Shown: positions 16,019 through 19,454 of the stretch, piece after piece
Layout of the letters: the number at the start of each line of letters is the position of its first letter
How positions within the stretch are numbered: the stretch's first letter is position 1
NCBI RefSeq assembly: GCF_019879105.1
Contig: NZ_CP082247.1
Span: 806,001-870,000 of the forward strand
Direction: 5' to 3'
DNA from: Natrinema sp. SYSU A 869
Lineage (GTDB): Archaea; Halobacteriota; Halobacteria; Halobacteriales; Natrialbaceae
Length of the DNA stretch: 64,000 nucleotides
The notes under the pieces: generated by a model
Told to the model about the DNA's origin: nothing
The model's input: only the letters and a program-made list of their open reading frames with translations
The model's database searches: none
Made by a program: the position numbers and the translations under genes

Positions 16019-16480
16019 TTATTTGGTTGATTCGAAGCCCCATGCACGAAGTCGTTCGACGACCTCGTCGACGTTGTGCATCGCAGCCTCGTAGGCCGCT
16101 TCCCGGACGTCAGTCTTTGAGACATCAGTTCCGAGTTCGTCGCTGACTGCATCGACAAACTCGTCCTCCGCGTCGACCACGTAATCTCGGAGGTAAAACT
16201 GGACCATCTCCCGGTCCTGTTTGACGTTATCCCGTACGTAGACCCAAGGGACACCGCCGTCATCAGTGCCGGCTTGCGGGGGGTCCCGGATCACTTCGCT
16301 CGAATTGGATTCACTGACTTCATCCTGATCGTCGTCTTCAGTGGTCTCTGCTCGAGGTGTCTCCTCCCCGGTAGCTGAGTGATCCGGTTCGGGATCGGAT
16401 TCGTCATCGACGGTCGTCTCTGCTTCTGCGTCCTCGTCTTGCACGTCCGCGAACGGATCACTACCGGATCCCTTCTTCAT
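16019..16480 (-). CDS. ParA partner protein, probable partition or centromere-binding factor
   Basis: 153 residues from MKKGSGSDPFADV at 16480; the ATG overlaps the parA stop, so translation is coupled. The first 80 residues are extremely acidic and low in complexity, likely disordered. The C-terminal 70 residues look structured and helical: VPWVYVRDNVKQDREMVQFY, DEFVDAVSDELGTDVSKTDV, EAAYEAAMHNVDEVVERL. Haloarchaeal plasmid parA genes often have such a partner in the ParB position. A classical ParB HTH is not obvious. DNA binding and the target, possibly the adjacent repeat array, are inference. Confidence 0.75.
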   Translation of the reverse strand: MKKGSGSDPFADVQDEDAEAETTVDDESDPEPDHSATGEETPRAETTEDDDQDEVSESNSSEVIRDPPQAGTDDGGVPWVYVRDNVKQDREMVQFYLRDYVVDAEDEFVDAVSDELGTDVSKTDVREAAYEAAMHNVDEVVERLRAWGFESTK

Positions 16481-17319
16481 CGTTCGCTCACCTCTTCGAT
16501 CTCCGTCGTTAACTGATCGATCTTCTCGAGGGTTTCCATCTCGTGATCGCGCTGGCGATCGCGATAGTCCTCGACATAGCGTCGCGGTGTACACTGCTGG
16601 TCCCAGCAGCCCTCGAAGAGCGACGATCGGTCGCGAATCGCGACCGGTGCGGGATAGCCCCGATCGCGAATCTCCATGAGGTATCGCTCCTGATCGGACG
16701 TTCGACCGACGCCGTTCGGGACGGCCGAGAGGACGCCGATTTCGGCTTCGAGCCGATCCTCGAGGCCATCGACGAGTTCCTCTAAGCCGAGGACACTTTG
16801 CATTCCTTTGCCGGTCGGCTCGACGGGAATCACCAAGCTTCGCGTGGCCGAAACGGCGTTATAGAGGTGCGGGCCCGCAGTCGCCGGCGGATCGATAACG
16901 ATCACGTCGTATTCCTGTGGGACACTGGACGCCAAGAGCACCTGTCGGAGCCGGTCATACGGATCGAAGTCGTCACCCTCACCGAGATCGTCGGCCATCT
17001 GCTGTGCTCTGTTCAGGAGATCCTCGAGGTTCTCGAGCATGTTGTGACTCGGAATGAGATCGAAGCCGTACTCCGTTTCGCAGATGAGATCCTCGAAGGA
17101 CCCTTTCGGTCGATCGATCAGGTGGCGAACGATATTATCCGCCTGACTGTCGTCTCGAGGTGCATCAACATCAAGGAGGTAGGTGAGTGATCCGTTCTGC
17201 TGGTCCATATCGATTGCGAGGACATCGAGTCCGTGGTTGGCATGAGACTCGATCAGTGCCGCTCCGATCGTCGATTTCCCGACGCCGCCGGCCTCCGAGT
17301 AGGTCGTATATGTGAGCAT
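16477..17319 (-). CDS. parA: ParA-family partition ATPase
   Basis: 280 residues. The N-terminus MLTYTTYSEAGGVGKSTIGA carries a deviant Walker A in which the usual initial Lys (KGGVGK) is replaced by Glu-Ala-Gly; the P-loop Lys and Thr remain. Walker A' (AIDMDQQNGSL) and Walker B (YDVIVIDPPAT) follow, as in ParA/Soj/MinD. It should drive segregation of the replicon with the coupled downstream protein. The upstream 1.1 kb is non-coding and contains the repeat array, as expected if the centromere or promoter operator lies there. No Orc1/Cdc6 or RepH gene lies in the window. Confidence 0.9.
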   Translation of the reverse strand: MLTYTTYSEAGGVGKSTIGAALIESHANHGLDVLAIDMDQQNGSLTYLLDVDAPRDDSQADNIVRHLIDRPKGSFEDLICETEYGFDLIPSHNMLENLEDLLNRAQQMADDLGEGDDFDPYDRLRQVLLASSVPQEYDVIVIDPPATAGPHLYNAVSATRSLVIPVEPTGKGMQSVLGLEELVDGLEDRLEAEIGVLSAVPNGVGRTSDQERYLMEIRDRGYPAPVAIRDRSSLFEGCWDQQCTPRRYVEDYRDRQRDHEMETLEKIDQLTTEIEEVSER

Positions 17320-17380
17320 ACGAGTTAGTTAGTCTTCTCGAATATAATACTTCACCATACGCACTCGAGAAGGCAACTGG

Positions 17381-18414
17381 TTAGCCTAATTAGATAGCCT
17401 AACTATAATCCCAACACGACACCACTGGCGACGACGGTTCTCGAGAAAGGGCGTTGGAATACCCGATCAGTTAGCCTAACCGAATAGACCAACGGCTGAT
17501 GTAGACACAGCACTACTCCGCTGCAGCCCCCAGTATAGATTTCTGGATCGTATAACCGATTACCCCAACCAGTTATCCTAACCAGTATCCCAACATGGTA
17601 CTACCGGCGACGACAGTTCTCGGGAAAGGCTATCGACACATCTAATCAGTTAGCCCAATCGAATAGGCTAACTACTATGTACGCACAGTGCTACCCACCG
17701 CGTTAGCCGTCAGTATAGGTTTCTAGATCACCTAACCGATTGGTCTAATCAGCTATCCCAACCAATATGCCAACACGGTACTACCGGCGGCGACAATTAT
17801 CGAAAAAGCCCACCGGTATGCCCACCCAGTTAGCCTAATTGGATAGGCCAACTACTGGGTAGATACAGCTCCCCTCCGCTGCAGCCGTCAGTAGAGGTTT
17901 CTAGATCGCCTAATCGATTGACCTAATCAGCTGCCCTAACCAATATGGCAACAGAGGATCAGCCGCTGCTAGATCGCTCAATATAGATTTTCGACTCATC
18001 TAACTAATTAGCCTAACCGACTATATTGGCCAGTAGAATTAGCCGAACGATCGCCCAGGAATTGACCATACCAACAGACCTCCCCAGCAAGCTGCCCCAA
18101 CGGACTACCCTAATTGGCTAGCTAACTTGGGAAATCTATTCGGTTAGCCTAATTGAGAGGCCGAAATGACCGGCCGAACACAGCAGGTCAGTCCCTCTAT
18201 CCAGAAATGGATTCGATTCGGGCAAGCTATGCAACCTAACTAGATAGACTGGTCGATCAGCATATCCATTCAGCCTAATTAGGGGCATCTATGGACTCTT
18301 CGATGAAAGATGCGGTTTGGACATGACGATCGTACTACTGTCGACTGATAAGCTACCCGGACTGTATAGGATGACAGGTGGGGCTAACTAAATAGACTAA
18401 CCAATAAGCCTAAT
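17381..18414. repeat. Degenerate repeat array upstream of parA (candidate centromere or iterons)
   Basis: About 1 kb without a gene, lower in GC than its surroundings. The core TTAGCCTAAY or close variants occurs at 17381, 17471, 17650, 17830, 18008, 18144, 18270 and 18405. The spacings 17471-17650-17830-18008 are 179, 180 and 178 bases, and the flanks are also alike, giving three near-complete tandem units (17412-17590, 17591-17770, 17771-17948) and a weaker fourth. Between cores lie shorter 12-13-base units such as AACCAGTTATCCT in direct order (17550-17595). Position before parA suggests a partition site or replication iterons. This is an inference. Confidence 0.75.
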
Positions 18415-18639
18415 AGCGTAATTGAGTTTGGACCACAGTCATCATCGACGTCACGTCCAGTTCACTGAAGCGCGACTGGTCGCTGCTACCGATTATCTGT
18501 TCACTATCTTTCTACCGACCATGATAAACGGTACCATTTTACTCACGGCGTCGGTAGAGGTGACCATGTCGATGCGCAGTACCGTCCGTTTGGGTCCGGG
18601 ACAACTATTCGAAGCACAGCTTCTGAGAGGAAGACGCGA

Positions 18640-19358
18640 ATGATCGCTCAGTCCGACCACATCGACGCAATCAAGTTCGACCTCGATATGGAGCAGGACA
18701 ACGAGCCGGATCCGTACAACGGTCGGCTCACGAACGCCGCGCTGAATCGCAAGGTCGAGGTCGTCGACGCCGTCCGCGAGGCGGTCAGTAACGAAATCGA
18801 CCTCGCCTTCGACTGCCACTGGGACTACACTGTCGAGAGCGCGACCCGTCTCGCGAGCAAGCTCGAGCCGTACGACCTCATGTGGCTCGAGGACGTCGTT
18901 CCACCGGAGGAGACGGACGCGCAACGCGAAGTCGCCCGGCGGACCGAGACGCCACTCGCCACCGGCGAAAATCGGTTTCGTATCCACGAACTGAGCGAAC
19001 TACTCGATGAGTATGCTGTCGACGTGATCACGCCTGATCCGACGACGTGTGGCGGTCTCGCGGAGTCGAAACGCATTGCCGAACGCGCCGAGGAGCGATA
19101 CATTCCCGTCTCACCGCACAATGTCTGTAGCCCCGTGGGACGATGGCCTGTGTTCACCTCTGTGCGGCCGTCCCCAACGCCGACGTACTGGAATACCACG
19201 CGCTCGAGGTCGACTGGTGGGATGACCTGCTCGAGCGCGACGAGCCGTTGATCGAAGACGGGTTCATCGACGTGCCGACCGAGCCGGGACTCGGCATCGA
19301 GCTAGACGACGAAGTCGTTGAGGAACACGTACTTGCCGGAACGGACGGGTTCGACTGA
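18640..19358 (+). pseudogene. Enolase-superfamily (mandelate racemase / sugar-acid dehydratase type) gene, truncated and frameshifted
   Basis: Only the barrel part remains. IDAIKFDLDMEQDNEP carries the catalytic Lys region, IDLAFDCHWDY the first metal Asp, MWLEDVVPPEE the second acid, and TPLATGENRF the third. The gene then leaves frame at the GGG at 19137-19139 after PHNVCSPVG and resumes as MACVHLCAAVPNADVLEYH to the end at 19358. About 150 N-terminal residues are missing upstream of 18640, with no match in any frame there. The intact family dehydrates sugar acids such as galactonate or rhamnonate. The truncation is real decay, whatever the cause of the frameshift. Confidence 0.75.
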
Positions 19359-19454
19359 CAACGCGATGGCAAACGCGTTCAAACAACGCACTTCGTCGGC
19401 GTTGTGCAACACAGCGTCACCGAGTACGACCACCGGGAGTGTTGCTCCGTCCCA

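Follow-up and report, generated by a model that had tools for sequence, protein, structure and literature searches.

Type Ib partition systems, such as ParFGH of TP228 and delta/omega of pSM19035, combine a small ParA without an N-terminal HTH domain with a downstream adaptor that has a disordered N-terminal arm and a DNA-binding C-terminal domain. Their centromeres consist of short upstream repeats, 7-bp heptads or tetramer repeats, which overlap the promoter. The closest parallel to the locus described here is SegAB of the Sulfolobales, in which a ParA-type ATPase is paired with a small, site-specific partner; SegB is a ribbon-helix-helix (RHH) protein that binds the 13-bp palindrome TCTAGA-S-TCTAGA at sites upstream of segAB (PMC12284271), and its structure has been described in a review (PMC9178275). 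The archaeal plasmid pNOB8 has a partition system of three components, AspA, ParB and ParA (PMC5120986); this source, a review from 2016, counts the question of what serves archaeal chromosomes and plasmids as centromeres among those still unanswered. McdA, the carboxysome-positioning ATPase, has a P-loop (SGGQGKT) without the signature lysine, yet is an active ATPase (PMC9178275). Haloarchaeal Orc1/Cdc6 origins carry repeats of another kind, the origin recognition boxes (ORBs; PMC3528665).

The locus investigated here lies in a 64-kb stretch of Natrinema DNA (the window), which covers 806-870 kb of the 891-kb contig C1; the genome also contains an 881-kb C2 and a 3.9-Mb C3. Its features are listed in Table 1. 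Like type Ib systems, it has a short ParA, a putative downstream adaptor with a predicted disordered arm (the partner) and upstream repeats at the putative promoter, which form the putative centromere. Unlike them, it has 13-bp palindromic boxes, a very acidic linker in the adaptor and Ala or Ser in place of the signature lysine of ParA, and the adaptor family was found here in the Halobacteriales only. With SegAB it shares the archaeal setting, the ParA-type ATPase with a small partner and a palindrome of 13 bp. SegB sites, however, are single and scattered on the chromosome (TCTAGASTCTAGA), whereas the window boxes have another sequence and are clustered in 13-bp register; the present family also differs from SegAB in having one array per operon, several mutually exclusive classes and a mostly plasmid-borne location. 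A PDB-sequence profile search with the partner found no solved partition adaptor. The pNOB8 system likewise pairs an archaeal plasmid with a ParA, but the window operon comprises only parA and the partner and has no ParB. McdA/McdB resembles the present system in its ParA-type ATPase without the signature lysine (SGGTFKT or AGGVGKT in the window family), but it has another adaptor and neither DNA cargo nor centromere. ORBs, too, are found on such replicons as repeats whose family depends on that of the neighbouring gene; they are, however, longer, contain G-strings and lie beside orc1/cdc6, whereas boxes of the window type lie beside parA, usually without orc1/cdc6.

Table 1. Features of the parA locus in the window (positions refer to the window; strand as recorded)
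Feature	Position	Strand	Basis
Partner, putative centromere-binding protein, 153 aa	16019..16480	-	ATGA overlap with parA, alignments, AlphaFold models
parA, 280-aa ParA-type ATPase	16477..17319	-	Pfam AAA_31 (6e-18), CbiA; PDB profile matches to Soj/ParA/McdA
Proximal box, just downstream of the TATA-like element	17327..17339	.	-20 to -8 from the parA ATG
Putative parA core promoter, BRE/TATA-like GAAGTATTATATTC	17340..17353	-	Conserved in the class-A relatives shown, with equal spacing to the parA ATG
Array of palindromic 13-bp boxes, putative centromere (parS-like)	17327..18415	.	Autocorrelation, PWM, shuffle z
Strongest boxes of the array	Starts 17379, 17392, 17469, 17558, 17571, 17648, 17661, 17828, 17903, 18006, 18142, 18390		
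TTAGCCTAAY cores (at most one mismatch)	17381, 17394, 17471, 17573, 17650, 17830, 18008, 18039, 18144, 18270, 18405	+	
Block of boxes duplicated in tandem with a period of ~179 bp	17461..17953	.	Tandem Repeats Finder

The array upstream of parA

An earlier note on this DNA had reported at least eight TTAGCCTAAY-like cores in a gene-free region upstream of parA. The array was found where it had been placed: eleven cores (five exact and six with one mismatch) lie on the forward strand between 17381 and 18405, and the ORF list showed no plausible gene within it. No core with up to one mismatch occurred on the forward strand of the window outside the array. The boxes have the consensus RRTTAGNCTAAYY and repeat in near 13-bp register over the whole array. 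Iterative PWM building yielded the 13-bp unit RRTTAGCCTAAYY, the core of which, GTTAGNCTAAC, is a perfect palindrome. At a loose threshold the PWM picked 41 boxes, about half of them strong, and neighbouring picks were mostly spaced by 12-13 bp or by multiples of 13 bp.

Autocorrelation within the array was stronger at lag 13 than at lags on the 179-bp scale, although lags 26, 178 and 358 were also raised; z scores of self-matches against dinucleotide-preserving shuffles were 10.4 (lag 13), 5.1 (lag 26), 5.2 (lag 178) and 7.0 (lag 358). The dominant unit of the array is 13 bp, not 179 bp. The cores at 17471, 17650, 17830 and 18008 (the one at 17650 being the one-mismatch form TTAGCCCAAT) are spaced 179, 180 and 178 bases apart as claimed, and a tandem-repeat search, which the earlier note had recommended, recovered the period (Tandem Repeats Finder: period 180, 2.8 copies, 74% matches). 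The tandem unit of about 179 bases is real but not the functional unit, as the same program found no 179-bp repeat upstream of parA at the other 30 class-A loci (classes are described below). It was rejected as a functional repeat, being confined to the window replicon among the class-A loci, and, since the 13-bp signal is stronger, the period is attributed to duplication, on a larger scale, of a whole group of boxes.

Across the genome as a whole, exact 12-mer matches fell inside the array except at two isolated places, and one-mismatch matches elsewhere were isolated and no more frequent than those of a control pattern. Matches to the class-A PWM in approximately 390 kb of C1 were clustered at the array only. 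Units scattered in chromosomes without parA, which the earlier note had named as speaking against a centromere, were thus not what was seen in this genome, where the boxes cluster in the array alone.

The array begins at a distance of 8 bp from the start codon of parA and extends to both sides of the TATA-like element. In most class-A loci a box starts at -20 or -21 from the parA ATG. Autorepression of the parA operon is suggested by the position of this box, which adjoins the conserved TATA-like element, and the proximal box of the window is likely to be the operator. Just past the array, at 18640-19370, a truncated enolase-superfamily fragment (MR_MLE_C) without its N-terminal part was observed, possibly a pseudogene at an insertion boundary.

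The operon and its distribution in the Halobacteriales

The assignment of the parA product to the ParA-family ATPases is backed by its Pfam and CbiA matches and by PDB profile matches to Soj and ParA. The protein is short, has no N-terminal HTH domain and carries its P-loop (SEAGGVGKS) at residues 8-16. The deviant Walker A motif KGGxxK[S/T] with its signature lysine was found neither in this protein nor in its relatives; in every readable P-loop (118 + 39 loci) the lysine is replaced by A or S, the sequences being SEAGG or SESGG and, once, GEAGG. An invariant lysine is present further along ParA, in EPxxKG, and might substitute for the missing one. The partner gene overlaps parA by the four bases ATGA, and because this overlap is conserved its start was set at 16480, which gives 153 aa and not the 191 aa of the longest ORF.

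Approximately 170 parA-partner operons from the Halobacteriales were examined, for which 140 regions had been fetched from the family group of the window and 40 from other families. Relatives of the partner were present in 85 of 125 Natrialbaceae genomes and in 178 of 293 genomes (58 of 87 genera) of the Halobacteriales, and all matches in a phylum-wide sample were confined to this order. At essentially all loci examined parA and the partner gene abut (start offset -1 or +2). The systems are mostly located on secondary replicons or contigs and on plasmids; where plasmids have been annotated, the partner mostly appears as a hypothetical protein.

Periodicity was counted at the 112 Natrialbaceae loci with at least 200 bp upstream of parA, the best lag being sought between 5 and 60. 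It was 13 at 88 loci and 26, 39 or 52 at 13 more (101 of 112, ~90%), whereas in the region downstream of the partner 13 was the best lag at 7 loci only. Outside the family, 31 of 39 loci (~80%) had a best lag of 13 or a multiple of it upstream of parA; a clear 13-bp period is missing at ~10-20% of loci. Arrays contain ~8-16 boxes over 0.5-1.2 kb; boxes are densest within 250 bp of parA, background density is reached by 0.5-1.25 kb, and 57-85% of box spacings are within 1 bp of 13n (23% by chance). In a nucleotide search of the array against plasmids, likewise proposed in the earlier note, the match was limited to 86 bp next to parA, in Natrinema versiforme, so that arrays must be compared as boxes and not by alignment. 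Compared in this way, the array accompanies the operon across the order. Two decayed operon copies with truncated ParA and no clear array were also encountered (L111, G056:C2; L174, G069:C2), and each of their genomes holds another system of the same class.

Box classes and partner classes

Classes were derived from de novo palindromic motifs and pooled PWMs, and the boxes sort into at least six of them (Table 2). The PWM of a locus's own class scored best at 101 of 105 loci when the genome of that locus was left out of training, and for the region upstream of parA at the 31 class-A loci analysed the best scores were those of class-A boxes.

Table 2. Box classes and the motif in the predicted strand of the corresponding partner
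Class	Box	Partner strand motif
A	TTAGnCTAA	VQFYL
B	TATCTnAGATA, TATCTNAGATA	VQLHL
C	TCTGTnACAGA, TCTGTNACAGA	[IL]ExHL
D	TTGnnnCAA	LTFFV
E	CAGTAnTACTG	HQLFV
F	TGAnnnTCA	VPLFL
G	Small class, close to E	HQFFL

With loci labelled by DNA alone, the partner residues that discriminate best between classes included 92, 94, 96 and 98, which alternate along one predicted beta strand, as on one strand face; further discriminating positions (118, 121, 123 and 125) are found around the start of the second helix. An alternating pattern of this kind is what recognition by an RHH protein would look like. The classes, of boxes as well as of partners, correspond to clades of the ParA tree, and since class and phylogeny are confounded, the match between box and partner represents co-divergence and not proof of recognition.

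Co-residence was counted for 131 classified loci from 80 genomes, leaving out two decayed copies. Only 3 of 75 same-genome pairs shared a class, one of them a duplication on one contig. Shuffling of labels gave an expectation of 12.6 such pairs (p=0.0004), and shuffling within multi-system genomes 13.6 (p=0.00004). A smaller locus set gave 2 of 62 co-resident pairs. Classes exclude each other within cells, as expected if they are incompatibility groups.

The partner protein and its predicted fold

The partner starts with a short conserved basic/Gly motif (MKKGSGSDPF), followed by an acidic disordered linker with 25 Asp/Glu against 2 Lys/Arg in 64 residues. In the AlphaFold model the N-terminal half is disordered and the C-terminal domain (residues ~90-147, strand-helix-helix-helix) is confident, an extended segment preceding helices at 99-116, 122-135 and 137-146. 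Searches of Pfam, NCBIfam and PDB sequences with the partner returned nothing convincing. No ParB family match was obtained on scanning the partner or nearby proteins, in agreement with the earlier remark that it has no obvious ParB motif.

Judged from this model, the C-terminal domain is probably an RHH domain. Four features point in this direction: the order strand-helix-helix, the motif SKTDxREA with which helix 2 begins, the palindromic form of the site, and specificity residues that alternate along the strand. VIA-align, run on a few candidates, gave low Z scores of 3.6 for the TCP domain of PCF6 and 2.7 for DinJ with the full model, and no match with the domain model; both proteins are of the RHH type. 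Foldseek found no significant match for either the full-length or the C-terminal model, an absence that is not evidence against RHH, and profile comparison (hhalign) with haloarchaeal RHH_1 proteins revealed no similarity. It is conceivable, though rather unlikely, that the partner binds the array by a different fold, a small helical or winged domain, and thus in a new mode, which would still be compatible with a centromere. The missing Foldseek, Pfam and hhalign matches would fit such a fold, as would the third predicted C-terminal helix and the distance from the SKTD cap to the REA motif, which is one residue shorter than in typical RHH proteins. The extended strand followed by two helices, the alternation of specificity residues along that strand, the palindromic box and the low-scoring matches to PCF6 and DinJ, however, argue for RHH. 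The earlier suggestion that the DNA-binding mode may be new is therefore probably wrong in kind, as the partner, by its predicted fold, looks like a disordered acidic arm joined to an RHH-like domain.

Proposed role of the locus

The locus is, by all these comparisons, very probably a plasmid partition locus, the array being its centromere and the partner the protein that reads it. Computed directly were the palindromic unit of 13 bp and the way it clusters upstream of parA, the conservation of the operon, the match of box and partner classes and the exclusion of classes within cells. Comparison thus lends good support to the centromere proposed in the earlier note, as the array accompanies the parA-partner operon order-wide, the box matches the partner and co-resident systems differ in class. 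The best reading of the sequences is a type Ib/SegAB-like system, which would work in that way but is not a canonical member.

In the mechanism that we propose, each box would be bound by a partner dimer through its C-terminal domain, an antiparallel pair of beta strands being placed in the major groove with residues 92, 94, 96 and 98 of the window partner. Neighbouring dimers, aligned at 13-bp steps, might form a nucleoprotein filament. The disordered N-terminal arm may stimulate the ATPase of nucleoid-bound ParA, which would move sister plasmids apart. The box beside the TATA element of parA might also serve the partner in repressing the operon that encodes it, and the box classes would act as incompatibility groups, allowing several large replicons to coexist in a haloarchaeal cell.

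It is very unlikely that the array is nothing but an extended autoregulatory region, with the partner as a repressor of the parA operon and without a role in partition. A box does abut the conserved TATA-like element, and box density is highest next to parA, but the number of boxes and the length of the arrays far exceed what a promoter needs, the neighbouring gene encodes a ParA ATPase, and most systems are located on plasmids or secondary contigs and belong to classes that exclude each other within a cell. Also very unlikely is the origin alternative, by which an initiator would bind the boxes as iterons or origin recognition boxes and parA would be a neighbour, an arrangement seen at many secondary replicons of bacteria. 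In its favour, secondary replicons of Deinococcus have direct repeats in front of parAB that act as origin and as parS alike (PMC7671480), and the array is relatively AT-rich with local skew. However, of 98 loci only 11 have Orc1/Cdc6 in the 2.8 kb upstream, for which reason the array is probably not a replication origin; the nearest Orc1/Cdc6 to the window array is ~149 kb away if C1 is circular, box class tracks the ParA partner, and no clear GC-skew switch was seen at the array in ~290 kb of the replicon.

Partition by the array and the partner being the preferred reading, we lean towards regarding the operons as an undescribed, order-wide archaeal partition family, with an adaptor that has no detectable similarity to known centromere-binding proteins, a ParA that works without the signature lysine, and at least six box/strand classes that would correspond to incompatibility groups of megaplasmids. 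No account of this parA-partner family was found in the open-access literature, which is weak evidence of novelty as most subscription journals are outside it; neither was an account found of how haloarchaea distinguish their large replicons at division. Haloarchaea keep several large replicons per cell, and here, for an entire order, the sequences reveal the cis site, its likely reader and a set of specificities that exclude one another. This offers a candidate centromere for tests in laboratory haloarchaea, a prediction of which megaplasmids can coexist and a strand-to-DNA recognition code, and it allows partner genes that have so far been called hypothetical to be annotated.

Further systems in the same genome

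Two related parA-partner operons are present in the genome of the window, on C1 at 583 kb (54% identity) and on C2 at 523 kb (41% identity). In each of them an array with 13-bp periodicity lies immediately upstream of parA, the sequences being different (CTTAGATAAC-like and TCTGTTACAGA). C1 thus carries two candidate partition systems of different class, that of the window and that at 582905-583711, together with several orc1/cdc6 genes, and in this it resembles a product of plasmid fusion. The class-C partner on C2 (L163:4093-4509) ends with KYASKIQKVLLS where its relatives have KYAFENPEGVAELMR...; a frameshift seems to have cost it the last helix, and the adjoining parA and array are intact. 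A distant ParA paralogue (35% identity) at C2:277386-280955 has a different upstream array, at ~1155-1430 of that region, with a 9-bp periodicity, a 36-bp tandem unit and words like AATAGGTA/CTACCTATT, which suggests that this genome also contains another partition family, unrelated to the first.
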